A DNA stretch of 64,000 nt from Paracoccaceae bacterium (GTDB lineage Bacteria > Pseudomonadota > Alphaproteobacteria > Rhodobacterales > Rhodobacteraceae): NCBI GenBank assembly GCA_003605175.1, contig QWDA01000008.1, forward strand, positions 62,001 through 126,000. Reading direction: 5' to 3'. This document shows positions 28,392 to 57,072 of the stretch, piece by piece. The notes below the pieces were generated by a model. It saw only the letters and a list, made by a program, of their open reading frames with translations, searched no databases and was not told the DNA's origin. A program made the translations under genes and the position numbers. How positions within the stretch are numbered: the first letter of the stretch is position 1; each line of letters begins with the position of its first letter.

Positions 28392-29315
28392 ATGTGGACC
28401 CCAGCCGAAAGCTATCCCGATCCGTGCGTCGAGATCCTCGATCCGCGCGCCGAGCCACTTCTCGTCCGAAACGCCGCGATCGAACGGCTGCACACGGGCA
28501 TGCGTTGGGCGGAGGGGCCGGTCTGGTTCGGCGATCACCGGGCGCTGATCTGGAGCGACATCCCAAACAATCGGATGCTGCGCTTCGACGAGGAAACCGG
28601 GATGGTCACCGAGTTCCGCCGCGGCACAAACACCAACGGCAACACGCGCGACAGACAGGGCCGGCTGGTGAGCTGCGAGCACCGCTGGCGCCGGGTGACA
28701 CGCACCGAATTCGATGGCCAGATCACCGTGCTCACGGACAGCTTCGACGGAAAGCGGCTGAATTCGCCCAACGACGTTGTGGTGAAATCGGACGGCGCGG
28801 TCTGGTTCACCGATCCGGCCTTTGGCATCCGCAACTATTACGAGGGGCTTCAGGCCGAGCCTGAGCTGCCGCTCGATGTCTACCGGATCGACCCGGATAC
28901 CGGAGAAGTGGAAAAGGTCATCGAAGGCATTCCGCATCCGAACGGCCTTTGCTTTTCCCCGGACGAGAGCCTTCTGTATCTCGTGGAGACCGGCGGCGGC
29001 CTGCATGTGTTCGACGTCACGGAAGATGGCAAGGGCGTGCGAAATTGCCGCCTCTTCGTCGATGCGAAGGGCGGGACGCCGGATGGCATCCGATGCGACG
29101 TCTTGGGCAATGTCTGGGCAGGATGGGGTGGCGGGGAGAGGCTCCATGGCGTGCGGATCTTCGCACCGGACGGCACCGCGATTGGCCATATCCATTTGCC
29201 TGAGCGCTGCGCCAACCTCTGCTTCGGCGGGCCGCACCGGACGCGCCTGTTCATGGCCGCGAGCCAGTCTCTCTACGCGCTCCACGTTGCAGTTCAAGGC
29301 GTTCCCTACATGTAG
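28392..29315 (+). CDS. SMP-30/gluconolactonase-family sugar lactonase
   Basis: 307 residues from ATG 28392. Six-bladed propeller: MRWAEGPVWFGDHRALIWSDIPNNRMLRF, NGNTRDRQGRLVSCEH, LNSPNDVVVKSDGAVWFTDPAFG, HPNGLCFSPDESLLYLVET, GTPDGIRCDVLGNVWAGW. The metal residues Glu (AEGP), Asn (SPND) and Asp (PDG) are all present. Likely opens a sugar-acid lactone ahead of the acid-sugar pathway; D-apionolactone is a reasonable candidate by context, but the known ApnL is a different family. It sits 48 bp before the GntR gene. Confidence 0.88.
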   Translation: MWTPAESYPDPCVEILDPRAEPLLVRNAAIERLHTGMRWAEGPVWFGDHRALIWSDIPNNRMLRFDEETGMVTEFRRGTNTNGNTRDRQGRLVSCEHRWRRVTRTEFDGQITVLTDSFDGKRLNSPNDVVVKSDGAVWFTDPAFGIRNYYEGLQAEPELPLDVYRIDPDTGEVEKVIEGIPHPNGLCFSPDESLLYLVETGGGLHVFDVTEDGKGVRNCRLFVDAKGGTPDGIRCDVLGNVWAGWGGGERLHGVRIFAPDGTAIGHIHLPERCANLCFGGPHRTRLFMAASQSLYALHVAVQGVPYM

Positions 29316-29356
29316 AACCACGGCCGGCTCTGGCGCTTTTCCTCGAACCATGGCAA

Positions 29357-29373
29357 AACTGGTATGATGAGTA
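29357..29373. promoter_or_regulatory. Putative GntR operator overlapping the regulator start
   Basis: AACTGGTATGATGAGTA. The same 17-mer, with one mismatch and inverted, lies 33 bp upstream of the apnO-like gene at 56196-56212. Here it covers both possible ATG codons (29364, 29367) of the GntR gene, which fits autoregulation. Confidence 0.6.
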
Positions 29374-30080
29374 GTCCAGAAGCGATTCCACGCCCGAAAC
29401 TGTCCGATCAGGTTCAGGACCGTCTGGTGGAGATGATCAGCGGCGGCGATCTCGCGCCCGGCGACATTCTCCCGTCAGAGCGCGAACTCATGGCCCGCTA
29501 CCAGGTCGGACGGCCGGCGATCCGCGAGGCGATGCAAAGGCTCCAACACATGGGTCTCGTGGAGATCCGCCACGGCGAGCGCCCGCGCGTGGCCAGCCCG
29601 TCCATCGGCGCGCTTGTCGATCAAGTCGGCATGTCGATGCGCCACCTGCTTTCGCATTCCGGAACGTCTCTGGAACAGTTGAAGGAAGCGCGGACGGTGC
29701 TGGAGGCCCGCATGGCGGAGATCGCGGCGGAGCGCCGGACCGAACCTGACGTCGCGCGTCTGAAAGGGATCGTGGAGGAGCAGGCCATCGCCCTGCCCGA
29801 CACCGAACGCTTTCTGGATTTCGATGCCGCCTTCCACAGGGAGATTGCTGCGATTTCCCGCAACCCGATCTTCGAGGCGCTGACGAAGGGCGTGTTCGAC
29901 TGGATGCGCGTATTTCACGCAAGCTCCGTCCGCAGCCCGGGTCTCGAGGCCCTGACGCTGGAAGAGCATCGCGGCATCATCGCGGCGATCGCGAAGGGCG
30001 ACGGCCCCGCTGCCTCGGCGGCGATGACGGCGCACCTGGAGCGCGCCAATGCGCTCTATTCCAAGGAGAAGACGGCGTGA
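29364..30080 (+). CDS. GntR/FadR-family transcriptional regulator
   Basis: 238 residues. N-terminal winged helix (about 10-78): LSDQVQDRLVEMISGG, LPSERELMARYQVGRPAIREAMQRLQHMGLVEIRHG. C-terminal all-helical FCD ligand domain (about 95-225) with FDAAFHREIAAISRNP and EEHRGIIAAI carrying the metal-binding Asp and His residues. Similar proteins are often named NanR-like, but no sialate genes are present. Overlaps the RuBisCO-like gene by 4 bp, so it controls its own operon and probably senses an acid-sugar intermediate. Confidence 0.9.
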   Translation: MMSSPEAIPRPKLSDQVQDRLVEMISGGDLAPGDILPSERELMARYQVGRPAIREAMQRLQHMGLVEIRHGERPRVASPSIGALVDQVGMSMRHLLSHSGTSLEQLKEARTVLEARMAEIAAERRTEPDVARLKGIVEEQAIALPDTERFLDFDAAFHREIAAISRNPIFEALTKGVFDWMRVFHASSVRSPGLEALTLEEHRGIIAAIAKGDGPAASAAMTAHLERANALYSKEKTA

Positions 30081-31327
30081 CCGCACGGATCGAGGCCGAC
30101 TACCTGATCGAAACGCCCGGCGACCCCGAACGCGCGGCGATGGCGATGGCGGGCGAGCAATCCTCGGGCACTTTCGTGACCGTGCCGGGCGAGACACCGG
30201 AGCTCCGCGCGCGCTCCGCGGCGCAGGTGGAACGACTTTCGGTAATTGGCACGGCAGAAGCCCCCTCCCTTCCCGGTTCGGCACACAGGGACGGTCCGGT
30301 GTCGCGCGCCGAACTCACGCTGTCCTGGCCCATGGGAAATGTCGGTCCCGACATCGTGAATCTCCTCCCGACGGTTGCCGGCAATCTGTTCGAGCTGAAA
30401 CAGTTCTCCGGACTGCGGCTTCTCGACATCCGCCTGCCGAAGGCCTTCGCCGAGCGCTACACGGGACCGAAATTCGGGATCGACGGGACGCGCTGGCTCG
30501 CGGGTGTCGAGCACGGGCCGCTGATCGGCACAATCGTGAAGCCAAGTGTCGGGCTCGGAGCCGGGCAGACGGCCGATCTCGCAGGACAACTCGCGGCGGC
30601 CGGCATCGACTTCATCAAGGATGACGAGCTCCAGGCAAACGGCCCGTCCTGCCCCTTCGACGACAGGGCGCGCGCCGTGATGGACCGGCTCGATCGCTCG
30701 GCTGACAAGTACGGCAAGAAGGTGATGTACGCCTTCAACGTGACCGGCGAAGTCGACGAGATGCGCCGTCGGCACGACCTCGTCCGCGATCTGGGTGGCA
30801 CCTGCATCATGGTGAGCCTGAACGCCATCGGGCTCACGGGCCTTCTCGCACTCAGCCGCCACAGCGAACTTCCGATCCACGCGCATCGGAACGGCTGGGG
30901 CTACCTCTCGCGGCATCCGATGCTGGGCTGGAGCTACCCCGCATGGTCGAAATTCTGGCGCCTTGCGGGTGCCGACCACATGCATGTGAACGGCCTCAAG
31001 AACAAGTTCAGCGAAAGCGACGACAGCGTGATCGCGTCGGCGAGATCGCTCTTCGAGCCGATGTTCGACGACCATCCCTGCGTCCCGATGCCTGTCTTCT
31101 CCTCCGGGCAATCGGCAGTGCAGCCCGACGAGACATTCGCTCGGCTCGGCCGCGCCGATCTGATCTACGCGGCGGGAGGCGGGATCATGGCGCATCCCGA
31201 CGGGCCGGCGGCAGGCGTCGATAGCCTGCGCGATGCCTGGACGGCCGCAATGCGCCGGATCCCGCCGCACGAATATGCCAGGACCCACCCTGCTCTGTCC
31301 CGGGCGCTCGATACCTACGCGTCATGA
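30077..31327 (+). CDS. RuBisCO-like protein, probable 3-oxo-isoapionate-4-phosphate enzyme
   Basis: 416 residues. RuBisCO large-subunit fold: IGTIVKPSVGLG with Lys155, FIKDDE with carbamylation Lys181 and metal ligands Asp183 and Glu184, HAHRNGWG with His268/His270, and loop-6 equivalent HVNGLKNKFSES. Not a CO2-fixing enzyme: KPSVG replaces KPKLG and there is no small-subunit gene. Partnered with a DUF1537 kinase by ATGA overlap, which is the arrangement of the D-apionate pathway, where RLPs act as decarboxylase (OiaX) or transcarboxylase/hydrolase (OiaT). Sequence reading alone cannot choose between them. Confidence 0.8.
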   Translation: MTARIEADYLIETPGDPERAAMAMAGEQSSGTFVTVPGETPELRARSAAQVERLSVIGTAEAPSLPGSAHRDGPVSRAELTLSWPMGNVGPDIVNLLPTVAGNLFELKQFSGLRLLDIRLPKAFAERYTGPKFGIDGTRWLAGVEHGPLIGTIVKPSVGLGAGQTADLAGQLAAAGIDFIKDDELQANGPSCPFDDRARAVMDRLDRSADKYGKKVMYAFNVTGEVDEMRRRHDLVRDLGGTCIMVSLNAIGLTGLLALSRHSELPIHAHRNGWGYLSRHPMLGWSYPAWSKFWRLAGADHMHVNGLKNKFSESDDSVIASARSLFEPMFDDHPCVPMPVFSSGQSAVQPDETFARLGRADLIYAAGGGIMAHPDGPAAGVDSLRDAWTAAMRRIPPHEYARTHPALSRALDTYAS

Positions 31328-32685
31328 GCGCGGCACTTCCGGAGGGCGTGCTCGTCGCCTGGTTCGGCGACGACTTCACCGGCTCGGCCGCGACGATGGA
31401 GGCACTGGAGTTCGCCGGCATTCCGTCGGTGCTCTTCAACGACATACCGACGCAGGAGCAGCTTGCGCGCTTTCCCGACGCACGCGCCATCGGGATCGCG
31501 AGCACGGCGCGTTCGCACGGGCCGGAGTGGATGGATAGGCAAATCCCCCTCGCCTTCGCATTTCTCGCCGGCACCGGTGCGCCCGTTCTCCACTACAAGA
31601 CCTGCTCGACGCTCGATTCCGCACCGCATGTCGGATCGATCGGCCGGGCGCTGGAACTGGCATCCGGCGTCGCACATGAACGGGCGATCCCCTTCCTCCT
31701 CGCCGCACCGGCGATGCGGCGGTACCAGGCCTTCGGGCATCTCTTCGCCTCGGCGCCCGAGGGCGTGTTCAGGATCGACCGCCATCCGGTCATGTCCCGC
31801 CATCCGGTGACGCCCATGGACGAAAGCGACGTACGGCGTCACCTTTCCCGCCAGACCGACATGAAGATGGGGCTCATTTCTCTCGAAGACCTCAGGGCCG
31901 ATGCATCCGGCGCGTTCGACCGGGAGCTGAAGGCCGGAGCGCGGATCATCTCCCTCGATACGATTAGCGCGGACGATCTCGCCACCTGCGGCGCGTTGAT
32001 CTGGGAGCGTCGCGGGGATGGATTGCTCGCCGGCGGTTCGCAGGGCGTCGAATACGCACTCGTCGAGCACTGGCGCCGCACGGGTGCCCTGCCCTGTCGG
32101 AATCAGACCGAAGGCGCCGGCGCAATCGACCGGATGGTCGCGGTCTCGGGCTCCGTTTCTCCCACAACCGCGGCACAGATCGACTGGGCCGAGCAGAACG
32201 GCTTCCGGGTCATCCCGCTCGATGCTTCGGCAGTCGCGCGTGGCGAGGCGTCTGTCGAAGAAACGGCAACTGCCACCGCGCTCAACGCGATCGCCACCGG
32301 AGAAGATCCGCTCGTCTGCTCGGCGCGTGGTCCGAACGATCCCGCGGTCGCATCGCTGAGGGAGACAGTCTCGCGCGGCGGCCTGTCCGAAGAAGAGACG
32401 AGCAGTGCCATCGGGGCGGCACTTGGCCGGATCCTTCGGCGCCTGCTGCAAGAAACGGGCATCCGGCGCGCCGTGATCTCCGGAGGCGACACCTCGGGCC
32501 ACGCCTTGCGTCAGCTCGACATCTTCGCCTTCACCGCTCTTGCGCCGACGATTCCCGGCGCGGCGCTTCTCACGGCGCATTCCGAACGGTCCGTCTTCGA
32601 CGGGCTGCAGATCGCGCTGAAGGGCGGGCAGATGGGCAGTGCGGACTATTTCGGCTGGATCAAGCGCGGCGGTGGCGAGGGCTGA
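31324..32685 (+). CDS. oiaK: DUF1537 four-carbon acid sugar kinase, probable 3-oxo-isoapionate kinase
   Basis: 453 residues. N-terminal substrate domain begins VAWFGDDFTGSAATMEALEFAG (about 10-31) with HYKTCSTLDSAPHVGSIG; C-terminal nucleotide-binding domain shows VAVSGSVSPTT and the ATP loop ISGGDTSGHALRQL, ending ALKGGQMGSADYF. DUF1537 proteins are established kinases of oxo-tetronates and 3-oxo-isoapionate. Its companion RuBisCO-like gene and the apnO-like gene under a shared operator favour the latter. A second, different DUF1537 kinase lies at 53121-54389. Its 3' end is separated from the convergent GntR gene by fewer than it overlaps (about 40 bp overlap). Confidence 0.72.
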   Translation: MSAALPEGVLVAWFGDDFTGSAATMEALEFAGIPSVLFNDIPTQEQLARFPDARAIGIASTARSHGPEWMDRQIPLAFAFLAGTGAPVLHYKTCSTLDSAPHVGSIGRALELASGVAHERAIPFLLAAPAMRRYQAFGHLFASAPEGVFRIDRHPVMSRHPVTPMDESDVRRHLSRQTDMKMGLISLEDLRADASGAFDRELKAGARIISLDTISADDLATCGALIWERRGDGLLAGGSQGVEYALVEHWRRTGALPCRNQTEGAGAIDRMVAVSGSVSPTTAAQIDWAEQNGFRVIPLDASAVARGEASVEETATATALNAIATGEDPLVCSARGPNDPAVASLRETVSRGGLSEEETSSAIGAALGRILRRLLQETGIRRAVISGGDTSGHALRQLDIFAFTALAPTIPGAALLTAHSERSVFDGLQIALKGGQMGSADYFGWIKRGGGEG

Positions 32686-33383
32686 CCAGCGCCACGCGCC
32701 TGCTTTTCCTTCGCGAGGTCGCTTTCCAGCGTGCGCGTGGCTTCCTCGGCCTCGACCGCCTTCCGGATGTCTTCCGCAAGATTGCCGAGATGCAGATCGA
32801 TGGCATCGCGGATCGCCTTCAGGTCGCGGTCTTTCAGCGCGCCGAGGATCTTGCCGTGCTGGTTCACCACCCGGTCCCGGTTGCGCCGCTGGACCGCAGC
32901 GAGATAGCGCGCGCGCCAGAGCCGCTCGAGGAAGGTCCTGTGCGTCCGTGCCAGCACCTCGTTATGTGACGCGCGGACGAGCGCAGAGTGGAACGACATG
33001 TCGATCTCGAACATGTCGAGCGGATCGGTCTTGTCGAAGTCCCGCTCCATCACGGCCATGATCGCCTCGAGCTTCCTGATATCTTCGGGCTTGGCATTCT
33101 GACAGGCCTTCTCCGCCGAGAGCCGCTCGAGCGCCAGCAGCACCTCGACCTGATCCTCGATTTCCCGGATCGACGGATTGGCGACGATCGGGCTCCTGGC
33201 GGGCCTGAGAACAACCAGCCCCTCGTCAGCCAGCATGCGAATCGCCTCCCGCATCGGGGTCCGGCTGACACCCATTTCGGCGGCATTGTCGCGCTCCTTG
33301 ACCGATGAGCCGGGCGGCAACCGCCCTCGCAGAATATCCCGCCTCAGACGTGCGGCGATCTGGTTGGCGAGATTTCTGTTCAT
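32646..33383 (-). CDS. GntR/FadR-family transcriptional regulator
   Basis: 245 residues. N-terminal winged helix (about 5-68) ANQIAARLRRDILRGRLPPGSSVKERDNAAEMGVSRTPMREAIRMLADEGLV, then FCD ligand domain with DMFEIDMSFHSALVRASHN and a charged C-terminal tail. Divergent from the TRAP operon, with two TGGTATACCA-core palindromes in the 179-bp gap; the same core recurs before two other operons of the cluster. Best candidate for the factor that binds these sites. Its 3' end overlaps the kinase gene tail-to-tail by about 40 bp. Confidence 0.9.
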   Translation of the reverse strand: MNRNLANQIAARLRRDILRGRLPPGSSVKERDNAAEMGVSRTPMREAIRMLADEGLVVLRPARSPIVANPSIREIEDQVEVLLALERLSAEKACQNAKPEDIRKLEAIMAVMERDFDKTDPLDMFEIDMSFHSALVRASHNEVLARTHRTFLERLWRARYLAAVQRRNRDRVVNQHGKILGALKDRDLKAIRDAIDLHLGNLAEDIRKAVEAEEATRTLESDLAKEKQARGAGQPSPPPRLIQPK

Positions 33384-33420
33384 GATCAGGATTTAACGGA
33401 AACGCTGGGCATTTCCAGAT

Positions 33421-33432
33421 TTGGTATACCAA
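33421..33432. promoter_or_regulatory. GntR operator palindrome 1
   Basis: Perfect palindrome TTGGTATACCAA, 38 bp upstream of the GntR start at 33383 and 131 bp upstream of the TRAP operon. Same TGGTATACCA core as three other sites in this window. Confidence 0.75.
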
Positions 33433-33468
33433 AAATCATTGATTGTCGACCGCATGATCGGTAGCTTG

Positions 33469-33498
33469 CCTCCTCAGATGGTATACCATCTGAGGAGG
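33469..33498. promoter_or_regulatory. GntR operator palindrome 2, a perfect 30-bp inverted repeat
   Basis: Left arm CCTCCTCAGATGGTA (33469-33483) is mirrored exactly by 33484-33498, with the ATGGTATACCAT core at its centre. Located 65 bp upstream of the TRAP binding-protein gene. As RNA it could form a 13-14 bp hairpin whose right arm contains GAGGAGG. Confidence 0.8.
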
Positions 33499-33562
33499 AG
33501 GGGATCTCCAAAGGTCCAAACAAGTCGGAGGCGGCCCAGGGAGGCCGCAAGGGAGGAATCGC

Positions 33563-34582
33563 ATGAAACTACCCATCGTTCTGGGCACGGTGGCTCTGAC
33601 GGCGATCGCTGCCGTTCAGGCCGCTGCGGAGCCCGTCACGCTTCGCGTGCAGACGCACTATGCCACCGAGCACCCGACCGGCCAGGCTCTGGCCCGCTGG
33701 ATCGACGACGTCCAGACCATGTCGAATGGCGACATCACCATCGAGATGTTCTACTCCTCGTCGGTTGTCGCTTCGACCGAGACCTTCGACGCCGCAATCA
33801 ATGGCATCATCGACTGCGACGCCACCGGAGGCGCCTACCAGACCGGCAAGAACCCGGCCTTCCAGTTCGTCGGCGACATCATGGGCGGCTATGACACGCC
33901 CTGGCAGCAATACAGCTGGCTCTACTACGGCGGCGGCTACGATGCCGCGCAGAAACTCTACAACGCGCAGGGCATGCAGTTGATCGGCTGGTCGATCTAT
34001 GGCCAGGAATCGCTGTCGTCCTCGAAGCCGATCACCGGATTCGAAGACCTCAAGGGCTGGAAGTTCCGCTCGCCGCCGGGAATGGAAACCGAGATCTTCG
34101 AGAAGCTCGGCGCCTCGCCGATCGTGATGGACTTCACCGAGATCTTCACCGCGCTCGAAACCGGCATCATCGACGGCGCCGACGCCTCGGGTCTCGCCAA
34201 CAATGTCGGCCTCGGCCTCTACGACATCGTGAAGCACGCCACCTACCCCGGCTTCCACTCGATGCCGTCGGATCACCTGGCCTGCAACCAGGAGGTCTGG
34301 GAAGGCCTGACCGAAACGCAGCGCAGGATCATCGACACCGCCTGGCAGAAGCTGTCGTTCCACATCGCGCTCTACAACGAAAAGGCAAATGCGGAAGCCG
34401 CAGCGAAGCTTCAGGCCGAGGGCGTGACGCTTCACGCCTGGTCGGATGAGGACCGCAAGGAATTCCGCAAGGCCGCGCAGGCTGCCTGGGAAGACTGGGG
34501 CACCCGCAGCCCGGAGGCCGCCGCGCTCCTTGCGAGCCACAAGGCCTACCTCACGGATCTGGGCCTGATCAGCGGGAACTGA
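33563..34582 (+). CDS. TRAP transporter substrate-binding protein (DctP family)
   Basis: 339 residues. Sec signal peptide MKLPIVLGTVALTAIAAVQAAA, then VTLRVQTHYATEHPTGQALARWIDDV and the DctP ligand-binding core FEDLKGWKFRSPPGMETEIFEKLGASPIVM with the conserved Arg that salt-bridges carboxylates, followed by YPGFHSMPSDHLACN. Preceded by GGGAGGAATCGC. TRAP systems use a sodium gradient to import organic acids; context predicts a sugar acid ligand. First gene of a seven-gene operon to 40715. Confidence 0.92.
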   Translation: MKLPIVLGTVALTAIAAVQAAAEPVTLRVQTHYATEHPTGQALARWIDDVQTMSNGDITIEMFYSSSVVASTETFDAAINGIIDCDATGGAYQTGKNPAFQFVGDIMGGYDTPWQQYSWLYYGGGYDAAQKLYNAQGMQLIGWSIYGQESLSSSKPITGFEDLKGWKFRSPPGMETEIFEKLGASPIVMDFTEIFTALETGIIDGADASGLANNVGLGLYDIVKHATYPGFHSMPSDHLACNQEVWEGLTETQRRIIDTAWQKLSFHIALYNEKANAEAAAKLQAEGVTLHAWSDEDRKEFRKAAQAAWEDWGTRSPEAAALLASHKAYLTDLGLISGN

Positions 34583-34617
34583 TGCGCGCTTCAATCGGCC
34601 CGATGCAAGGCTGAACC

Positions 34618-34687: not shown

Positions 34688-35488
34688 ATGATGAAGGATC
34701 GCGTCTGGCTCGGATCTCTGCGCGGCCCGGTCCGCATCGCCATGATTGCCTCGATTGCCGCCGCCCTGCTGATCTTCTTCTATTTCATCGTGATGCAGTT
34801 CGTTTCCGGTGACGCCTACGGCATGTACGAGATGATCCGGCCACGAGGCAAACCTGTCGTCTGGGCCATGCTTTTCGCGCTGACGGCGGCTCTTATCTTC
34901 GCCTCGCTGTTTCTTTCCGACGAGATCGGTTCGATCGAGTCCGATCCGCACGGCTTCTTCGACGTTCTCTCGCTGGTCCTGTCGCGGCTCGCAATGATCG
35001 GCACCGTCTTCATCGTCCTCGTCATGTTCTACGAGGTCGTCTCGCGCTATGTCTTCTCGCGGCCCACGCTTTGGGCGAACGAATTGTCGCTCTGGATCGC
35101 CGCCTTCGTCTTCCTGCTCGCCGGGCAATACGCGATGCAGCAGCGCAGCCATATCCGCATCTACGTCATCTACGACCTGATGCCGCGCTGGCTGCGCAAG
35201 ACGGCCGATTGCCTCTCGGTCTTCCTGATCTGGGCCTTCGCCTTCTCGCTCGTCTGGGGCGGCTACGCCGATGCGAAGACCCGGCTCCTCCGCATGGAGA
35301 CCTTCGGCACTGCCTGGGATCCGCCGATCCCCGCGATCATCAAGCCCGCGATCCTGATCACGATCGTCCTCGTCGCCCTGCAGGCGCTCTCCAACCTGAT
35401 CGCCGACTGGCACAAGGAAGCGGAGCACCACGTCGACGAGATCGACAAGGAAGAGATCGAGAACATCCGCCGCACGCTGGAAAACTGA
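34688..35488 (+). CDS. TRAP transporter small permease (DctQ family), enlarged
   Basis: 266 residues against about 160-200 for typical DctQ. Two additional membrane helices at the N-terminus (about 18-40, IAMIASIAAALLIFFYFIVM, and about 58-80, VVWAMLFALTAALIFASLFL), then the four-helix DctQ core with FYEVVSRYVFSRPTLWANELSLWIAAFVFLLAGQYA and IRIYVIYDLMP. Acidic C-terminal tail. One base separates it from the large permease gene. Confidence 0.9.
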   Translation: MMKDRVWLGSLRGPVRIAMIASIAAALLIFFYFIVMQFVSGDAYGMYEMIRPRGKPVVWAMLFALTAALIFASLFLSDEIGSIESDPHGFFDVLSLVLSRLAMIGTVFIVLVMFYEVVSRYVFSRPTLWANELSLWIAAFVFLLAGQYAMQQRSHIRIYVIYDLMPRWLRKTADCLSVFLIWAFAFSLVWGGYADAKTRLLRMETFGTAWDPPIPAIIKPAILITIVLVALQALSNLIADWHKEAEHHVDEIDKEEIENIRRTLEN

Positions 35489-38131: not shown

Positions 38132-38179
38132 CACCCGCCCTAGGGCGTGCCGGGACATCAAAACGAGGAGACAGAAACG

Positions 38180-44414: not shown

Positions 44415-44426
44415 GGTTCTTTTCCC

Positions 44427-45188: not shown

Positions 45189-45249
45189 GCATCCTCCCTG
45201 CGCGCCGCCCTCCGATTGGTTGACAAGGAAAGCGTATCGCGACGATAAA

Positions 45250-45263
45250 AATGGTATACCATT
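45250..45263. promoter_or_regulatory. GntR operator palindrome 3
   Basis: Perfect palindrome AATGGTATACCATT in the 120-bp gap between the divergent SDR (start 45188) and alcohol dehydrogenase (start 45309) operons. Core identical to sites at 33421, 33469 and 56105. Confidence 0.78.
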
Positions 45264-45308
45264 CTGCGGTCGGCGCAAGACTCGCCCGCAGTGGGAGGAC
45301 TGGTCCGG

Positions 45309-50010: not shown

Positions 50011-50011
50011 G

Positions 50012-50767
50012 ATGTCCGACTTCGCGAACTATCCGAGCCTCAAGGGCAAGTCCGTTATCGTCACCGGCGGAGGGTCCGGAATCGGCGCGGAGATCGTCAG
50101 GGCCTTCGCTGCTCAGGGATCGAAGGTCGGCTTCGTCGATTTCGACAAGCAGGCCTCGAAAGCGCTCGTCGCGGAAACCGTAGGAGCCGTGACCTTCGCG
50201 CCCTGCGACTTGCGGGACATCGACGCGCTGCGCGCTGCTTTTGCGACGCTCGCCGAAGCGAACGGCCCCGCCACCGTGCTCGTCAACAACGCTGCCCGCG
50301 ACGACCGGCATGACTGGCGCGAGGTGACACCGGAATACTGGGACGAGCGGATGGCCACCAACCTCCGGCACATGTTCTTTGCGATCCAGGCGGCTGCTCC
50401 GGGAATGATCGAAGCCGGCGGCGGATCGATCATCAACATGGGCTCGAATTCCTGGTGGGAGGCCGTGGGCAACATGCCGGCCTACACCACAGCGAAAGCC
50501 GCGGTGCACGGGCTGACCCGTACAATGGCACGCGACCTCGGCCAACACCGCATCCGGGTGAACGCGGTGGTCCCGGGCTGGGTGATGACCGAGCGTCAGA
50601 AGGACCTCTGGGTCACCGAGGAGGCGCTCGCCGCGCATCTGAAGAACCAGTGCCTGCCGGATCCGATCGAGCCGGTCTACCTCGCCCGGATGGTGCTGTT
50701 CCTCGCATCGGACGACGCGGCGATGTGCACCGCCGGCAACTTCTTCGTCGAGGGCGGCTCGGTCTAG
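50012..50767 (+). CDS. SDR family oxidoreductase, aldose 1-dehydrogenase-like
   Basis: 251 residues from ATG 50012. SLKGKSVIVTGGGSGIGAEIVRAFAAQG, NNAARDDRHDWREVTPEYWDERMATNLRHMFFAIQA, Ser in MGSNSWWEAVG, YTTAK, VVPGWVMTERQ and FFVEGGSV. The ARDDRH and PGWVMTERQ elements occur in SDRs that oxidise D-galactose, L-arabinose or L-fucose at C1. End of the plus-strand operon; its stop overlaps the convergent gene by 4 bp. Confidence 0.84.
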   Translation: MSDFANYPSLKGKSVIVTGGGSGIGAEIVRAFAAQGSKVGFVDFDKQASKALVAETVGAVTFAPCDLRDIDALRAAFATLAEANGPATVLVNNAARDDRHDWREVTPEYWDERMATNLRHMFFAIQAAAPGMIEAGGGSIINMGSNSWWEAVGNMPAYTTAKAAVHGLTRTMARDLGQHRIRVNAVVPGWVMTERQKDLWVTEEALAAHLKNQCLPDPIEPVYLARMVLFLASDDAAMCTAGNFFVEGGSV

Positions 50768-51708
50768 TTCACCGGCGTGGCGAGCGGGCGGCCTTCCAGG
50801 AAGTTTCGGACGTTCTCGAGCTGCAGTTCGGCCATGGCGCGACGCGTCTCCACCGTGCCCGAGCCCTGGTGCGGCTGGAGAACCACGTTCTCCAGCTCGA
50901 GAAAGCGCGGGTCGATATTGGGCTCGTTCAGGAACACGTCGAGCGCCGCCCCGGCGATGGCGCCGCTTTCCAGCGCATCGAGCAGCGCGCCCTCGTCGAT
51001 GGTCGTCCCGCGCGAAATGTTGACGATGACGCCACGGTCGCCCAGCGCGGCGATCACTTCGCGAGAGACGTAGTTCCTCGTCTGATCGCCGCCCACGAGC
51101 GCGACGACGAGGACATCCACGGCGCGTGCCAGACCGACCGGGTCGGCATGAAAGGTCCAGCCCGGCGTCTCCTTTTCCGACCGCGCGTGATAATGCAGCT
51201 CACATTTGAAGGCCGCGAAACGGTCCGCGATCTCGCGCCCGATCCGTCCGAGCCCCATGATGCCGACCTTCGAGCCGGACAGCTTGCGATTGAGCGGCAT
51301 CTCCCCCTTTGTCGGCCATTGGCCGGAAGCCACCCAGTCGGCCCCGACGACCATGCGGCGGAAGAAGGTGAGCGCGAGTCCCACGGCGAGATCGGCCACA
51401 TCGTCGTTCAGCACGTCGGGCGTGTTCGTCACCTTCACCCCGCGCTCGGACGCCGCGCTGACATCGATCGCGTCGTACCCCACACCGAAATTCGCGATCA
51501 CGCCGAGATTCGGCAAAAGGTCCATCACCGCGCCACCGAACCGGTTGTGCCCCTTGAAGGCGACCGCACGAATTCCCCCGCGCGCCGCTTCGGAAAGCCC
51601 TCCAACCGCATCGAGAGTCGCCACCCTGACGCTCGGACAGGCGTTCTTCAGGCGCTCTTCCTCCTCGCCCGTGAAGGGACCACTGATCAGGAGCGGTGTG
51701 TCGGTCAT
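50764..51708 (-). CDS. D-isomer 2-hydroxyacid dehydrogenase
   Basis: 314 residues from ATG 51708 (GAGGACGAGA upstream). VIANFGVGYDAIDVSAASERGVKVTNTPDVLNDDVADLAVGLAL, NAD motif VGIMGLGRIGREIADRF, catalytic Arg in NISRGTTIDEGALL, Glu in LNEPNIDP and His in LQPHQGSGT. Similar to glyoxylate/hydroxypyruvate reductases. May reduce a two- or three-carbon 2-oxo acid formed in the pathway. Last gene of the minus-strand tetronate operon. Confidence 0.88.
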   Translation of the reverse strand: MTDTPLLISGPFTGEEEERLKNACPSVRVATLDAVGGLSEAARGGIRAVAFKGHNRFGGAVMDLLPNLGVIANFGVGYDAIDVSAASERGVKVTNTPDVLNDDVADLAVGLALTFFRRMVVGADWVASGQWPTKGEMPLNRKLSGSKVGIMGLGRIGREIADRFAAFKCELHYHARSEKETPGWTFHADPVGLARAVDVLVVALVGGDQTRNYVSREVIAALGDRGVIVNISRGTTIDEGALLDALESGAIAGAALDVFLNEPNIDPRFLELENVVLQPHQGSGTVETRRAMAELQLENVRNFLEGRPLATPVN

Positions 51709-51718
51709 TCTCTCGTCC

Positions 51719-52477
51719 TCAACGATAAATCTCGAGCCAACCGAGACTGTCGTCGGTCGGACCCTTGGGTTTGTACTCCGCACCCAGCGGCAAATCCCAG
51801 CCAAGAGCGCGGATGGTGCGAAAAACATGCCCGTAGGCGACCTCCCCTTCGTCGGGAGGGCCGCGGTCGGGCACGCTGGCGAACTGGATGTGGCCGATGA
51901 AAGGCAGGCAGGCTTCGAACCGCCGCGTCAGATCGCCCTCCATGATCTGGACATGGTAGCAATCGAACATGAGCTTCACGTTCGACAACCCGAGCTCTTC
52001 GATGAGACTCGCAGCCTGCCGCGTGGTGCTCAGGAAGTATCCCGGCACGTCGTAGGTGTTGAGCGGCTCGATCAGCACGATGCGCTCGGGGCCCGCGCGC
52101 TCGGACGCATAGGCGAGGTTCGCCAGAAACGCCTGCCGCGCCTCCTCCCCTTCCGCCTTTCCCGCCATCACGTGAACGGCCCCTGCCCCCACCTGCGCCG
52201 CATATGAGAACGCCTCGTCGATCGCCGCGCGCGCCTCGGCCTCGCGCCCAGGCAGCGCCGAAAGGCCCATCTCGCCCGCGCCGACATCGCCGCGGCGCGT
52301 GTTCAGCCCGAGAAGCGGCAGCCCGGTCTCCGCGAGCGCGGCGGCAAGCTCGGAGGGCGGCGTGTCATAGGGCCAGTGCACCTCCACCGCGTCGAACCCT
52401 GCCGCCTTCGCCACGCGAACCGCGTCGGGCAACAGCCTGTCGTTCCAAAGAAAACCCAGGTTGGCGGAAAACCTCAT
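51719..52477 (-). CDS. otnI: 2-oxo-tetronate isomerase (hydroxypyruvate isomerase family)
   Basis: 252 residues. TIM-barrel: FSANLGFLWNDRLLPDAVRVAKAAGFDAVEVHWPYDTP, metal ligands in LIEPLNTYDVPGYFL, LMFDCYHVQIMEGDL, GHIQFASVPDRGPPDEGE and GAEYKP. Hyi-like proteins beside DUF1537 kinases and class II aldolases are OtnI, which interconverts 2-oxo- and 3-oxo-tetronate. Stop/start overlap of 4 bp with otnC. Confidence 0.85.
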   Translation of the reverse strand: MRFSANLGFLWNDRLLPDAVRVAKAAGFDAVEVHWPYDTPPSELAAALAETGLPLLGLNTRRGDVGAGEMGLSALPGREAEARAAIDEAFSYAAQVGAGAVHVMAGKAEGEEARQAFLANLAYASERAGPERIVLIEPLNTYDVPGYFLSTTRQAASLIEELGLSNVKLMFDCYHVQIMEGDLTRRFEACLPFIGHIQFASVPDRGPPDEGEVAYGHVFRTIRALGWDLPLGAEYKPKGPTDDSLGWLEIYR

Positions 52478-53124
52478 GCGTCCCAGTCCACGTCGAATTT
52501 CGTCACCACGGCACCGATCTGCTCCGGGGTCATCATGCGGGCGTCATAGCCCCGCATGATGATCGCGAGCCGCGCGGTCTCTTCCAGTTCCTCGATGGCG
52601 TTGCAGGCGGCTTCGACGTCCACCCCCGCTACAACCGGCCCGTGATTGGCGAGCATCACCGCTGTCCGCTTCCCCGCCAGCCCGCGCACCGCTTCGCCCA
52701 TCGCCGGGTCGCCTGGGACGAAGAAGGGGAGCAGCTTCACCTTCCCGAGCTTCATGATCGCGTAAGGCGTGAGCGGCGGCAGGAAGTTGTCCTCGTCCAC
52801 CTCCGGCATCAGCGACCAGGCGACCGAATGGCAGGAGTGGAGATGCACCACCGCCCCGGTTTTCGCGCGCGTGTCGTAGAAGGCGGCGTGAAGCGGCATC
52901 TCCTTCGTCGGCTCGTCGCCCTCGATCAACACACCGCGCGCATCGAACCGGCTGAGGCGGCCCGGATCAAGCCTCCCGAAGCTGGTGCCCGTCGGCGAGA
53001 CGAGAAGCCCGCCATCGGGCGTGCGTGCCGAAATGTTGCCTGTGGAGCCGCCGGTGAGGCCGCGGTCGAACATGGACTTCGCCAGAAGGCAGATCTGTTC
53101 GCGGAGACGGGTTTCCTCGCTCAT
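52474..53124 (-). CDS. otnC: 3-oxo-tetronate 4-phosphate decarboxylase (class II aldolase family)
   Basis: 216 residues. GLTGGSTGNISARTPDGGLLVSPTGTSFGRLDP, zinc-binding HLHSCHSVAWS, ANHGPVVAG with the third His. Decarboxylates 3-oxo-tetronate 4-phosphate to dihydroxyacetone phosphate and CO2. ATG at 53124 overlaps the otnK stop by 4 bp; the longer open frame upstream is not coding. Confidence 0.88.
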   Translation of the reverse strand: MSEETRLREQICLLAKSMFDRGLTGGSTGNISARTPDGGLLVSPTGTSFGRLDPGRLSRFDARGVLIEGDEPTKEMPLHAAFYDTRAKTGAVVHLHSCHSVAWSLMPEVDEDNFLPPLTPYAIMKLGKVKLLPFFVPGDPAMGEAVRGLAGKRTAVMLANHGPVVAGVDVEAACNAIEELEETARLAIIMRGYDARMMTPEQIGAVVTKFDVDWDA

Positions 53125-54389
53125 GCCGCCCCCAGCGTTGCAAGCGCGTCGGCAAGGAATGTCTCCCGCCCGAAATTTCCCGACTTCAGCGCGAGCGCGA
53201 TCGGATGTCCGCCGCTTTCGCAGAAGGTCCACGGGACGCCGGGTGCGATCTCCTGTCCGATATCGAGCCGGGTCACACCGAGCGCCTGGGTAACGGCACC
53301 AGAAGTCTCCCCTCCCGCCACCACGAATCGGCGGGTCCCCCGGTCGCGCGCGGCGACGGCGAGTTCTGCCAGGGCCGCCTCGACGACGGCGCCCGCCATG
53401 CCAACCCCGAGCTTGTCCTGCGCAGCCTTCACCGCCTCTGGTTCGGCGGTCGCATAGATCAGAGGCGCAGCATCGAGCGCTTGCTGGGAAAGCCAATCCA
53501 AAGCCTCCCCGGCCCCGTTCTCCCCCAGCGCGACCGGGTCGAGGCGATAGCTCGGCGCTGTCGCCGCATAGGCCGCGACCTGCGCCCGGGTCATCGCGGA
53601 GCAACTGCCCGAAAGGACAATCGCTGGCGCACCGATATCATCCCGCTCTGCCACCTCGGCGCGCGCACCCAGCTTGCCCGACGCCCGGAGGAGCTCCGGC
53701 AACGGCATGGCGACTGCGCTGCCGCCGGTGATCACCCTCATGTCCCGGCAGGCTACCGCGATCACCCGGAGATCCTCATCGGCCACCGCATCGGCGATCA
53801 CATGCGCCACGCCCTTCCCGGCCAGATCGTCGAGCGCGGCCCGGACCGCCCTTGCCCCACGCGCGACCGTGAAGCGATCCACCAACCCGACTTCGCCTTG
53901 CACCTGCGGCGCGAGAAGACGGAGGAGTGAGCTGTCCCGCATCGGCGTCAGAGGATGGTCCTTCATCGGGCTTTCGTCGAGCGGCTGCCGGTCGACGAAG
54001 AGATGCCCCATGAAGATCGTGCGGCCGTTCTCCGGGAAGGCGGGGCAATAGATCGTCTGCCTGGCCCCGACCGCCTCCATGATCGCCTCCGCGACCGGCC
54101 CGATATTGCCCACGGGCCGGCTGTCGAAGGTGGAACAGTACTTCCAGAAGAACTGCTCCGCCCCGGCCTCCCGCAACCAGTCGAGCGCCTGTCGAGCTTC
54201 ATCCACCGCTTCGGCAACCGGCGCGGTGCGGATCTTCAGCGCGATCACCTCGAAAGGCGCCGTGTCCTTGGGCGGACCATCCGGCACACCGATCCTGAGG
54301 CGCACCGGGAAACCGCTGCGCGCCAGCAAGCCCGCAAGATCCGTCGCTCCGGTGAAATCATCCGCGATGCAGCCGAGGACGGTCGTCAC
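53121..54389 (-). CDS. otnK: 3-oxo-tetronate kinase (DUF1537)
   Basis: 422 residues, GTG start at 54389. GCIADDFTGATDLAGLLARSG, KIRTAPVAEAVDEARQAL, FWKYCSTFDSRPVGNIGPVAEAI, CPAFPENGRTIFMGHLFV, and ATP site VVAGGETSGAVTQALGV with ALKSGNFGRETFL. All standard for OtnK, which phosphorylates 3-oxo-tetronate. Clearly different from the second DUF1537 protein at 31324, which shows (GDDFTGS, GGDTSG). Overlaps ltnD and otnC by 4 bp each. Confidence 0.92.
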   Translation of the reverse strand: MTTVLGCIADDFTGATDLAGLLARSGFPVRLRIGVPDGPPKDTAPFEVIALKIRTAPVAEAVDEARQALDWLREAGAEQFFWKYCSTFDSRPVGNIGPVAEAIMEAVGARQTIYCPAFPENGRTIFMGHLFVDRQPLDESPMKDHPLTPMRDSSLLRLLAPQVQGEVGLVDRFTVARGARAVRAALDDLAGKGVAHVIADAVADEDLRVIAVACRDMRVITGGSAVAMPLPELLRASGKLGARAEVAERDDIGAPAIVLSGSCSAMTRAQVAAYAATAPSYRLDPVALGENGAGEALDWLSQQALDAAPLIYATAEPEAVKAAQDKLGVGMAGAVVEAALAELAVAARDRGTRRFVVAGGETSGAVTQALGVTRLDIGQEIAPGVPWTFCESGGHPIALALKSGNFGRETFLADALATLGAA

Positions 54390-55291
54390 CCCTGCCCCTC
54401 CCCCGGCAGCGTCAGCCCGGCGTTCCGGGCATAAAGCTTGGCCACCGCCGCGTCGTCCTCCTGTCCGAGGCCCATGCCGGAGGCTGCGAGGAACTGCTGG
54501 AGCGCCGCGTTCACCATCGGCGCGCTGAACTTCGCGCTGCGCGCGATGTCGGAGACGATGCCGAGATCCTTCGGCCAGATGTCGGCCACGCTGAGCGGAG
54601 CGTAGTCGCCCGCCACGATGTGGGGGCCGCGGTCCTCGATCACCCAGCTTGTGCCGGCACTGACCGGAATGATCTCCATGAATTTCTCCGGACTGATCCC
54701 TTGCGTCATGCCGAAGGTCATCGCCTCCGCAAGCGTCGCGATATGAACCCCCACGAGGAGCTGGTTGACCGCCTTCATCGCGGAGCCCGGCCCGGCCGCA
54801 TCGCCCAGTTCGAACACATTCCGCGCCATCGCGTCGAAGACCGGCCGGATCGCGGCGAACGCCTCCGGCGCGCCCGAGGCCATGATCGAAAGCTCCCCGG
54901 AGGCCGCACGAACCGTGCCGCCTGAAATCGGCGCATCGAGATAATGCACGCCGGCTTCGTTGCAACGCGCCTCCATGTCCCGCGCGAAATCCGGGGCGAC
55001 GGTAGCGCAGCTTGCGACGACCGCGCCCCTGTGCAGCCCGCCGACGATACCGCCTTCGCCGAACAGCACCGCCTCGGTCTGGGCCGCGTTGACGACCACG
55101 GTCACGACGGCGTCGAGATCGCCCGCAACCTCTGCCAATGCGCCCGGCGATCCGCCATCGCTGCGGAAATCCTCCATCCGCTTCGCGTCGATATCGACAC
55201 CCCAGATCGCATGGCCGGCCTTCAGGATCGATCGCGCAATCCCGAGCCCCATCGAACCGAGCCCGATCACCGCGACCTTTTTCTTCGCCAT
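54386..55291 (-). CDS. ltnD: L-threonate dehydrogenase
   Basis: 301 residues from ATG 55291 (GGGAGG eight bases upstream). KKVAVIGLGSMGLGIARSILKAGH, YLDAPISGGTVRAASGELSIMASG, catalytic Lys in GPGSAMKAVNQLLVGVHI, and C-terminal SVADIWPKDLGIVSDIAR. These match LtnD, which oxidises L-threonate to 2-oxo-tetronate. With otnK, otnC and otnI it forms the complete L-threonate route to DHAP. Confidence 0.9.
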   Translation of the reverse strand: MAKKKVAVIGLGSMGLGIARSILKAGHAIWGVDIDAKRMEDFRSDGGSPGALAEVAGDLDAVVTVVVNAAQTEAVLFGEGGIVGGLHRGAVVASCATVAPDFARDMEARCNEAGVHYLDAPISGGTVRAASGELSIMASGAPEAFAAIRPVFDAMARNVFELGDAAGPGSAMKAVNQLLVGVHIATLAEAMTFGMTQGISPEKFMEIIPVSAGTSWVIEDRGPHIVAGDYAPLSVADIWPKDLGIVSDIARSAKFSAPMVNAALQQFLAASGMGLGQEDDAAVAKLYARNAGLTLPGEGQG

Positions 55292-55305
55292 GTTCGCAGC
55301 CTCCC

Positions 55306-56049
55306 TCAATAGGTCGTCCGTCCACCGCTCAGGTCGAACGTCGCTGCTGTCGTGAACGAGTTCTCTTCGGACAGGAGCCAGGCAACCATTGCCGCGATTT
55401 CCTCAACCTGAACAAACCGTTCTCGAGGAATCCTCACCCGCATGTACTCGATGAACTCCGGTGTCAGCCCCTGCAGGATCGGCGTGTCGGCGGTGGTCGG
55501 CGTGATCGCGTTCACGGCGATGCCGGTGGTCGCGAGTTCCTTGCCGAGCGATTTGGTCAGCCCAAGAATCCCCGCCTTCGCAGCACTGTAGGCGGCGAGG
55601 TTCGGATTGCCTTCCTTGCCCGCCACCGATGAGACGTTGACGATCCGGCCGTAGTTCCGCTCCTTCATCACCGGCACCACGAGACGGCAGCAGTTGAAAG
55701 TGCCGGTGAGATTGACGCGGACCACCGCTTCCCATTCGTCGGGCCCGTACTCGGTCACCGGCTTCACCGGCCCGGTGATGCCGGCCGCGTTTACCAGACC
55801 GTCGATCCGGCCATGCGCCACAACTGCCGCATCGACGGCTGCGCGCACCGTGGCCTCGTCCACCACATCGACAGCCGACCAGTTCGCGCGGCCCAGCGTC
55901 GCGGCGCTCTCTTCCGCAACATCACTCTTGATGTCCCAGAGCACAGCCGTGCCGCCCGAAGCCACAACGCGCTCTGCGATGGCGTAGCCGATGCCTTGCG
56001 CGCCGCCGGTGACGATCACCACTCGGGCCCCGAAATCGTAGCTGTTCAA
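55306..56049 (-). CDS. SDR family oxidoreductase
   Basis: 247 residues, TTG start at 56049 with GGAGG about seven bases upstream; no ATG gives a sensible start. VVIVTGGAQGIGYAIAERVVASGGTAVLWDI, NAAGITGP, VSSVAGKEGNPNLAAYSAAKAG and FDLSGGRTTY. Related to 3-oxoacyl-reductase-like sugar dehydrogenases. First gene of the tetronate operon and divergent from apnO, with a TGGTATACCA operator in between. Confidence 0.85.
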   Translation of the reverse strand: MNSYDFGARVVIVTGGAQGIGYAIAERVVASGGTAVLWDIKSDVAEESAATLGRANWSAVDVVDEATVRAAVDAAVVAHGRIDGLVNAAGITGPVKPVTEYGPDEWEAVVRVNLTGTFNCCRLVVPVMKERNYGRIVNVSSVAGKEGNPNLAAYSAAKAGILGLTKSLGKELATTGIAVNAITPTTADTPILQGLTPEFIEYMRVRIPRERFVQVEEIAAMVAWLLSEENSFTTAATFDLSGGRTTY

Positions 56050-56104
56050 AGCGGCCCTCCCCGGTCCTCCGAACCCGTCGGGCAGCTTTCCAGCTGCCGA
56101 CTCA

Positions 56105-56120
56105 AATGGTATACCATTTC
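56105..56120. promoter_or_regulatory. GntR operator palindrome 4
   Basis: Perfect palindrome AAATGGTATACCATTT in the 195-bp divergent region, 56 bp upstream of the SDR start and 125 bp upstream of apnO. Confidence 0.78.
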
Positions 56121-56195
56121 TCGCGAACCGCCACCCGCAACCGCGGGCACAACCAGGACCGGCCGAGCGGAAATCCGCATTGCGGGCAACATATA

Positions 56196-56212
56196 TACTC
56201 ATTATACCAGTT
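56196..56212. promoter_or_regulatory. Second operator type upstream of apnO
   Basis: TACTCATTATACCAGTT, the inverted 16-of-17 match to 29357-29373 at the start of the GntR/RuBisCO-like operon. Lies 33 bp upstream of the apnO start in an AT-rich promoter-like stretch. Confidence 0.6.
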
Positions 56213-56244
56213 AGCTAGCGACACATGGATGCAAGGAGACCGGC

Positions 56245-57072
56245 ATGGAAACCGTGGCACTGTTCGGCGCGGGCGGGAAAATGGGTACCCGGCTTGGGAA
56301 AAACCTCGCCAGGACCGATTTCAGGGTGCGCCATGTCGAGGTTTCGGACGCCGGCATTGCCCGCCTCAAATCCGAGATCGGCGTCGATAGCGTGGATCCC
56401 GACATGGCCATCGCCGGGGCTCAGGTGGTTATCCTCGCCCTGCCCGATACCGTGATCGGCAAGGTCGCCGCGGGACTGGTTCCGAAACTCGATCCCGGAA
56501 CGATCGTGGTGGTCCTAGACGCCGCATCGCCACATGCCGGCCACCTGCCGGAGCGCGCGGACATCACCTATTTCGTGACCCATCCCTGCCACCCGCCGAT
56601 CTTCAACAACGAAACCACGGAAGCCGGCCGCAAGGATCACTTCGGTGGCGTGGCAGCGCACCAGGGCGTGGTGAACGCGCTGATGCAGGGCCCGGAGGAG
56701 CACTACGACATTGGCGACAGGGTGGCCCGTGCGATCTTCGCGCCGGTCTCGCGGACCTATCGCGTCACCGTGGACCAGATCGCGCTTCTTGAACCGGGCC
56801 TGTCAGAAACCGTCTGCGCCTCGCTTCTCACGGTGATGCGCGAGGCGATGGATGAGGTTGTTGCCCGCGGTGTGCCGAAGGAATGCGCGCGGGACTTTCT
56901 CCTCGGCCATATGAACATCCTCGGCGCGGTGATCTTCGAGGAGGTCGACGGGGTGTTCTCGGACGCCTGCAACAAGGCGATCGAATACGGCGTGCCGGCC
57001 CTGATGAAGGACGACTGGAAGCGGGTCTTCGAACCGCAGGAAATACTGGAAAGCGTCAGGCGGATCACCTGA
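56245..57072 (+). CDS. apnO: D-apionate oxidoisomerase-like protein
   Basis: 275 residues. Rossmann start TVALFGAGGKMGTRLGKNL, then DVILALPDTVIGKVA-like VVILALPDTVIGK, YFVTHPCHPPIFNNET, VSRTYRVTVDQIALLEPGLSETVCASLLTVMREAMDEVVARGVP, DFLLGHMNILGAVIFEE and DDWKRVFEP. This 'phosphogluconate dehydrogenase C-terminal-like' group with THPCHPP and LGHMNI contains ApnO, which oxidises D-apionate and migrates a hydroxymethyl group to give 3-oxo-isoapionate, the substrate of OiaK. Preceded by AAGGAGACC. Monocistronic, under two operators. Confidence 0.75.
   Translation: METVALFGAGGKMGTRLGKNLARTDFRVRHVEVSDAGIARLKSEIGVDSVDPDMAIAGAQVVILALPDTVIGKVAAGLVPKLDPGTIVVVLDAASPHAGHLPERADITYFVTHPCHPPIFNNETTEAGRKDHFGGVAAHQGVVNALMQGPEEHYDIGDRVARAIFAPVSRTYRVTVDQIALLEPGLSETVCASLLTVMREAMDEVVARGVPKECARDFLLGHMNILGAVIFEEVDGVFSDACNKAIEYGVPALMKDDWKRVFEPQEILESVRRIT

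Follow-up and report, generated by a model that had tools for sequence, protein, structure and literature searches.

A syntenic acid-sugar supercluster with a recurring predicted operator in a Paracoccaceae bacterium

L-threonate and D-erythronate are reportedly catabolized, according to work on DUF1537 proteins, by LtnD or DenD, OtnI, OtnK and OtnC. The Weimberg D-xylose pathway of Caulobacter uses XylB, XylC, XylD and XylX, and the L-idonate pathway of Escherichia coli uses IdnD and IdnO. D-apionate catabolism, reported by Carter et al. (2018) as cited in PMC6302742, involves ApnO, OiaK and RuBisCO-like proteins (RLPs) that decarboxylate or transcarboxylate/hydrolyze 3-oxo-isoapionate-4-phosphate. 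Genes resembling parts of these pathways stand together in a 64-kb stretch (the window; C34:62001-126000) of the 4.09-Mb, 35-contig genome of a Paracoccaceae bacterium (G000). The main block of this stretch (32646-55309) contains the regulator GntR2, the TRAP transporter DctPQM, PhyH, short-chain dehydrogenases/reductases (SDRs), beta-hydroxyacid dehydrogenases (bHADs), IlvD, a medium-chain dehydrogenase/reductase (MDR), FAH, KdgK, DenD, a D-2-hydroxyacid dehydrogenase (2HDH), OtnI, OtnC, OtnK and LtnD. It is a syntenic supercluster, and the conservation of its core order and operator positions in other genera bears out an earlier annotation, made from sequence alone, that treated it as one integrated block. 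We propose that it serves as an acid-sugar scavenging regulon in which one regulator and one TRAP importer would supply parallel catabolic branches, and we put the probability of this reading at roughly 0.6.

Synteny and gene content

We searched 295 genomes of the family at E<=1e-80 for the RLP and E<=1e-60 for the ApnO-like, FAH and PhyH proteins, which occur in 35, 30, 87 and 50 genomes, respectively. In 10 of the 295 (G000 itself, G003, G041, G042, G087, G116, G169, G184, G213 and G253), PhyH and FAH lie no more than 30 kb apart on one contig, at 9.8 to 29.8 kb; these are 10 of the 25 genomes with both genes, and in the other 15 the two are on separate contigs or farther apart, many of the contigs being short. 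The shared order runs GntR2 / DctPQM-PhyH-..-bHAD1-SDR1-EamA / SDR2-IlvD-..-bHAD2-SDR and then MDR-LysE-..-FAH-KdgK-DenD / 2HDH-OtnI-OtnC-OtnK-LtnD, with the exceptions that G213 is rearranged and that the Otn part is lacking in the examined DNA of several relatives. Among 16 stretches from relatives, all 21 core genes are present in G087 and G116, 20 in G041, 19 in G305, 18 in G003, 17 in G169, G213 and G253, 16 in G042, and 14 in G184 and G204; the remaining five hold 4 to 8 core genes and are contig fragments or the partial variant G062, where a GntR2-TRAP set is followed by ApnO-kinase-RLP. The gaps in this order are occupied in relatives by genes for a galactarate/altronate dehydratase-type protein (GD_AH), a Gfo/Idh oxidoreductase, an enolase-superfamily dehydratase (MR_MLE), RraA, a second PhyH and a GlcD-like FAD oxidase.

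The core modules are thus not scattered in relatives, being syntenic across genera with operator positions conserved; the RLP module is scattered in part and proves separable. RLP and FAH co-occur in 27 genomes (hypergeometric p 6e-10). An RLP of at least 69% identity is found in nine family genomes besides the host, and in four of these (G087, G213, G305, G044) it lies within 31 kb of FAH. In the other five it is on a different contig from FAH (G114, G206, G168, G041) or FAH was not found (G120); the RLP contig of G206 is only 5.9 kb long, so that linkage cannot be judged there. A named relative, Rhodobacterales LSUCC0387, carries the RLP, Otn and FAH part.

Gene calls and Pfam/NCBIfam scans place 29 genes in 28392-57072, nearly all for acid-sugar uptake or catabolism, as the first-pass annotation had claimed. 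They also recover its list of two DUF1537 kinases, an RLP, an ApnO relative, LtnD, DenD, OtnI/OtnC, IlvD, FAH, a KDG-kinase-like protein, five SDRs, three beta-hydroxyacid dehydrogenases, an MDR and TRAP DctPQM; PhyH, EamA, LysE, two GntR regulators and the D-2-hydroxyacid dehydrogenase had been absent from it. SDR5 was skipped by the gene caller and recovered by reading the gap 44415-45308, followed by a profile scan. Curated cut-offs are passed by LtnD, DenD, OtnK, OtnC, the NanR-type GntR1 and the subfamily models of IlvD and SDR5; OtnI, KdgK, L-idonate 5-dehydrogenase, gluconate 5-dehydrogenase, D-xylose dehydrogenase, OiaX and OiaK are best or good matches below cut-off. In the list below, scores are in bits, and a second figure after a slash is the cut-off.

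28392..29315, +, SMP-30/gluconolactonase-type lactonase (PF08450, 179.6)
29364..30080, +, GntR1, GntR/FCD regulator of the NanR subfamily (NF003011, 269.2/260; gene caller's preferred start 29427)
30077..31327, +, RLP, OiaX-related (NF042437, 437/700; PDB 3nwr, 404; tree)
31324..32685, +, DUF1537 kinase, OiaK-like (NF042436, 490/700)
32646..33383, -, GntR2, GntR/FCD regulator divergent from the TRAP operon (PF07729, PF00392)
33422..33431, predicted operator site 1
33479..33488, predicted operator site 2, centre of a perfect 24-bp palindrome (33472-33495)
33563..34582, +, TRAP solute-binding protein DctP (PF03480; best PDB match 4pe3)
34688..35488, +, TRAP DctQ (PF04290)
35490..37118, +, TRAP DctM (PF06808)
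37184..38131, +, PhyH-type Fe(II)/2-oxoglutarate dioxygenase (PF05721)
38147..39064, +, bHAD1 (PF03446, PF14833; gene caller start 38180)
39068..39793, +, SDR1 (PF13561)
39810..40715, +, EamA transporter (PF00892)
40787..41524, -, SDR2 (PF00106)
41536..43317, -, IlvD/Edd sugar-acid dehydratase (NF009560, 987/684; PDB 5oyn, 849)
43494..44414, -, bHAD2 (PF03446)
44427..45188, -, SDR5, gluconate 5-dehydrogenase-like (NF005711, 477/413; NF005983, 312/408)
45252..45261, predicted operator site 3, between SDR5 and MDR
45309..46334, +, MDR, L-idonate 5-dehydrogenase-like (NF007375, 360/469)
46334..46924, +, LysE-type exporter (PF01810)
46971..48125, +, FAH-fold enzyme, 2-keto-3-deoxy-pentonate dehydratase-like (PDB 9kkt, 405; 2q18, 70)
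48122..49057, +, PfkB sugar-acid kinase, KdgK-like (NF052444, 243/400)
49045..50010, +, DenD, D-erythronate dehydrogenase (NF043036, 396/325)
50012..50767, +, SDR3, D-xylose 1-dehydrogenase-like (NF053674, 326/400)
50764..51708, -, 2HDH, glyoxylate reductase-like (PF02826)
51719..52477, -, OtnI, 2-oxo-tetronate isomerase-like (NF043033 best model, 262/325)
52474..53124, -, OtnC, 3-oxo-tetronate 4-phosphate decarboxylase (NF043034, 285/250)
53121..54389, -, OtnK, 3-oxo-tetronate kinase, DUF1537 (NF043035, 537/350)
54386..55309, -, LtnD, L-threonate dehydrogenase (NF043037, 403/350)
55306..56049, -, SDR4 (PF13561)
56107..56116, predicted operator site 4, between the SDR4-LtnD-Otn operon and ApnO
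56245..57072, +, ApnO-type D-apionate oxidoisomerase relative (PF16896; PDB 5t57, 419 over 274 residues; 3c24, 258)
57302..57388, -, tRNA-Leu(gag) at the block border

DctP is 68-87% identical in 14 relative stretches, and its closest PDB neighbor, 4pe3, is listed with no ligand named. The block's PhyH remains conserved at 69-77% identity, and H153, D155, H229 and H234 are the same in all 10 sequences aligned; an AlphaFold model built from 10 sequences reached a mean pLDDT of 37.7, too poor for a fold search.

A predicted operator and its putative regulator

Four copies of the palindrome TGGTATACCA are present in the window, confined to three promoter regions of the block: two copies lie between GntR2 and DctP, one between SDR5 and MDR, and one between SDR4 and ApnO. 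Allowing one mismatch adds no site in the 64 kb, and none of 100 shuffled controls reached four copies (mean 0.26, maximum 2). Genome-wide, four of the six exact copies of this 10-mer are in the block, and a 12-mer operator search with up to two mismatches gave 25 sites, against 13 for a backward control. In 22 stretches from relatives, picked for carrying block genes and totaling 741 kb, we counted 75 exact copies, against 0.33 expected by base composition, none of them within a matched gene. Leaving out genes less than 350 bp from an end, the palindrome lies within 350 bp upstream of DctP in 16 of 16 cases, MDR in 12/13, IlvD in 10/11 and LtnD in 6/7, and more rarely of 2HDH (5/12), RLP (2/10), DenD (1/15) and bHAD2 (1/13). 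It is never found there for FAH (0/16), KdgK (0/14), EamA (0/13), OtnC (0/9), OtnK (0/8), OtnI (0/9), DctM (0/15), PhyH (0/12), bHAD1 (0/11), SDR1 (0/12), SDR2 (0/12) or OiaK (0/10). All 16 relative loci in which GntR2 and DctP are adjacent at >45% identity carry it between the two. Because it also stands beside GntR2 in G116 and G253, where GntR1 is unmatched in the DNA examined, GntR2 is the likelier binder.

Upstream of the lactonase (28104-28391) and of GntR1 (29316-29426), no copy is found even with two mismatches, so operator sharing stops short of the lactonase-GntR1-RLP-kinase operon here. The shared operators of the first-pass annotation accordingly stand for three promoter regions and fail for this operon, and a common regulator may extend to the former, the operator being missing at the latter. 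Relatives vary in this respect. The palindrome lies directly upstream of the RLP operon in G213, G044/L170 and L175; in L186 it precedes an SDR located 3 bp before the RLP; and in G305, L180 and L183 the operator is at LtnD, which heads an LtnD-OtnK-OtnC-OtnI series continued codirectionally by the RLP run.

Comparison with known pathways

In the tetronate branch, LtnD, DenD, OtnK and OtnC of the window all exceed their equivalog cut-offs, and an OtnI-like gene that scores below its own cut-off is adjacent. The set differs from the threonate/erythronate pathway in being embedded in a larger predicted regulon and in having DenD in the FAH-KdgK operon, outside the Otn operon. The window resembles the Weimberg pathway in having an IlvD close to the xylonate dehydratase entry 5oyn, a FAH-fold enzyme, an SMP-30 lactonase and a XylB-like SDR. 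The FAH protein also matches 2q18, a 2-keto-3-deoxy-D-arabinonate dehydratase, and the entries behind its XylX-type match (9kkt) and the XylD-type match of IlvD bear family names only. By contrast with that pathway, there is no semialdehyde dehydrogenase among the 29 scanned genes of the block, SDR3, which was the best-matching query at >=45% for no gene in the 16 relative stretches, falls short of the XylB cut-off, and the genes are spread across several operons. Similarly, a divergent pair of L-idonate 5-dehydrogenase-like and gluconate 5-dehydrogenase-like genes recalls the E. coli L-idonate pathway, but both score below the equivalog cut-offs, and no gluconate kinase or Idn-type permease was recognized in the block.

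The D-apionate pathway is matched by ApnO, a DUF1537 kinase, an RLP and a NanR-type GntR. The window nevertheless differs in that its RLP and kinase fall below the OiaX and OiaK cut-offs, that it has no ApnL or close ApdG, that ApnO is 25 kb from the RLP, and that the RLP's clade is mostly paired with a divergent ApnO-like partner (ApnO'). Ten RLPs of relatives were scanned with the OiaX model, the one model to set an RLP subgroup apart, and two pass (L044, 757; L007, 753). When aligned with Pyrococcus Rubisco 2cwx and the RLP 3nwr, the window RLP keeps the main RuBisCO-type catalytic motifs, with the first Lys of KPK, KDDE, HAHR and GGG..HPDGP, as well as a later H and K and a Ser; the second Lys of KPK is Ser in the window RLP and Asn in 3nwr. 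A tree of 113 RLPs, built without fragments of <370 residues or identical sequences and with one match per locus, places it among 21 tips that form a mostly Rhodobacterales clade, some inner nodes being weakly supported. Of the 13 further tips marked as supercluster, 10 belong to this clade, and ApnO' is found at all its members except L183, L196 and the window. Across 80 named loci, ApnO' occurs at 37, ApnO at 17 and neither at 26 in the DNA examined.

The RLP and the ApnO of the window thus belong to different lineages. The latter is a strong relative of 5t57, presumably ApnO itself, and is 77.9% identical to a Martelella plasmid gene of an apiose-type cluster; the host genome has no second ApnO-like gene at E<=1e-60. 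In G121 and G009, the RLP (59-65% identity) adjoins ApnO (64-67%), pairs that help the idea that the window's RLP operon would work together with its distant ApnO. Lactonases 46% and 51% identical to that of the window lie near RLPs in L095 and L221.

Several more distant RLP loci deserve mention. In Microvirga, Methylobacterium, Prosthecomicrobium and Bradyrhizobium (L199, L203, L205, L206, L210, L239, L244), RLP-kinase genes stand beside SDRs with neither ApnO nor ApnO' in the DNA examined, hinting at another feeding reaction. A different function is possible for a deep RLP subgroup (L103-L107, L111), which is 44-48% identical to the window RLP, has no ApnO nearby and comes with a kinase of only 30-33% similarity. 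Haloarchaeal plasmids (H24, H34, H36-H40) carry RLPs 53-55% identical to that of the window, and the RLP relative at L005 (G015:C60) has a single in-frame TAG, indicating a pseudogene or an assembly error.

Proposed scheme and alternatives

From the sequence and its conservation we infer a scheme in which GntR2, as a GntR/FCD repressor, would bind the palindrome at three promoter regions, its own promoter included, until an acid-sugar ligand releases it; one TRAP sugar-acid importer and several catabolic branches would then be made in parallel. LtnD/DenD, OtnI, OtnK and OtnC would handle tetronates, and IlvD followed by FAH could process pentonates in a Weimberg-like manner. Hexonates of the idonate/gluconate type would pass through MDR and SDR5, acting as IdnD- and IdnO-like enzymes, and go on to IlvD and KdgK; ApnO, followed by the DUF1537 kinase and RLP, could take branched acids of the apionate type. 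What the block acts on in nature is probably a mix of sugar acids in free form rather than apiose as such.

Several observations weigh against this scheme. The matches behind the labels IdnD, IdnO, XylB and KdgK miss their equivalog cut-offs, as do the RLP and its kinase with respect to OiaX and OiaK, and the XylX and XylD labels rest on PDB similarity. PhyH, EamA and LysE have no role in it. OtnK is present in only 5 of the 16 relative stretches, some of which are cut by contig or fetch ends, and the counts across relatives treat related genomes as independent. The palindrome is absent from the RLP operon of the window and, in the DNA examined, from those of G087, G114 (stretch L077) and L195. 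Of its two copies outside the block, one (C11:611915; L267:9917) lies between an FCD-GntR gene and a molybdopterin oxidoreductase/formate-dehydrogenase-like gene and the other (C29:357874) is close to open reading frames without Pfam matches; neither could be tied to sugar acids.

One source suggested by the first-pass annotation, D-apiose from an apiose-bearing plant or seagrass polysaccharide, is very unlikely in light of these comparisons. It would fit the strong ApnO relative, and PMC11747546 describes growth on D-apiose by a Rhodobacteraceae isolate that carries an apiose cluster. ApnL also occurs elsewhere in the genomes of G041 and G003, which have the core block and carry the RLP on another contig. 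A search with a Martelella ApnL-type protein (NF049900, 624/750 bits), however, found this D-apionate lactonase neither in G000 nor in G087, G213, G305 and G044, the relatives with a linked RLP module; the matches, in 4 of 16 genomes tested, were the controls G059 and G204 plus G041 and G003. For the D-apiose dehydrogenase ApdG, represented by a Martelella query labeled by its position beside ApnL, the best relatives in the host genome are 31-32% identical. The importer is a TRAP system, whereas two apiose-type clusters (Martelella, Salipiger) have ABC importers. We also compared 93 loci with RLPs of at least 59% identity, leaving out RLPs below that level and the duplicate loci L076, L178, L079 and L233. 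Apiose-entry genes (ApnL or ApdG; coverage >60%, E<=1e-30) are found at 0 of 11 supercluster-type loci and 40 of 82 others (Fisher p 0.002), or 0/9 and 37/70 for loci of at least 15 kb (p 0.003), with the provisos that related sequences are not independent and that locus lengths differ. Supercluster-type here means FAH at >=60%, DctP at >=65%, or LtnD/OtnK at >=55% in the DNA examined, a definition by which G114 counts through its Otn genes alone, and G041 and G169, which have the block with RLPs on separate contigs, fall among the others. Because apiose-entry genes accompany this RLP type at those 40 other loci, the RLP and kinase plausibly act in apionate catabolism, but an apiose source would leave the tetronate, pentonate and idonate genes unexplained.

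A mixture of vitamin C breakdown products, one for each branch, would account for all branches together. The ascorbate products reported in PMC11066805 and PMC6225978 are L-threonate, L-idonate/5-ketogluconate, L-xylonate, L-lyxonate and branched 2-carboxy-L-pentonates with their lactones. Their counterparts in the window are the LtnD-Otn, IdnD/IdnO-like, IlvD-FAH and lactonase/RLP modules. We nonetheless regard this source as unlikely: no ascorbate-oxidation gene was recognized in the block, the part of the genome searched for one, action of the RLP or ApnO on 2-carboxypentonates is hypothetical, and DenD and the D-xylose dehydrogenase-like SDR point to D-acids. The bacterial ascorbate pathway of Stack et al. 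(2020) reportedly uses enzymes mostly of other families than those of the block. The stronger version, in which the supercluster would be dedicated to vitamin C breakdown products and the RLP and DUF1537 kinase would act on a branched acid other than apionate, is quite improbable. We give a similarly slim chance to a single long pathway for one unrecognized branched or modified acid sugar, with PhyH, dehydratases and RLP in series. The conservation of PhyH would favor it, as would the second PhyH, GD_AH, MR_MLE, RraA and FAD-oxidase genes of relatives, but in several relatives the examined block lacks the RLP and Otn modules or they lie outside it, a situation that a linear route would not tolerate. 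Finally, separate operons without functional unity could have come together fortuitously or through repeated insertions at a single site. The block does lie beside tRNA-Leu(gag), a same-genus genome has the corresponding flank without it, and the position of the RLP module varies; gene order and operators are nevertheless conserved across genera, and the GC content of the block (65.5%) does not differ from that of its flanks (66.7% and 65.6%), making such a gathering highly improbable.

The flank in question, tRNA-Leu(gag)-PGbind-LplA, is uninterrupted by the block in the same-genus G001, which at the thresholds used has no RLP, ApnO or FAH match and carries a PhyH relative (65%) at C1:598266. 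The tRNA is near LplA in 5 of 5 relatives looked at, and G062 has block-like genes beside it too, suggesting that tRNA-Leu(gag) is a favored insertion site. No exact 14-mer of 57251-57388 recurs elsewhere in the window, and no integrase was recognized among the flank proteins scanned, which cover part of the flank genes. To the left of the block are a histone-deacetylase-fold protein (14369-15514) and a 917-residue protein with one OmpA domain (16321-19074). Elsewhere in the genome, a third DUF1537 gene (G000:C29:104461-104814; L003, L268) near GntR, SDR and IlvD-relative genes marks a second acid-sugar locus.

The modules of the block are known singly. In the open-licence papers searched, we found none describing a syntenic supercluster in which four acid-sugar branches, an RLP and a 2-oxoglutarate dioxygenase stand together with one TRAP importer and one conserved operator. 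The conserved operator makes the proposed acid-sugar scavenging regulon directly testable, and the locus offers a way into the function of RLPs and PhyH proteins left unnamed by current family models. More broadly, the ligand of the regulon would reveal the mixture of sugar acids scavenged by roseobacter-type bacteria.

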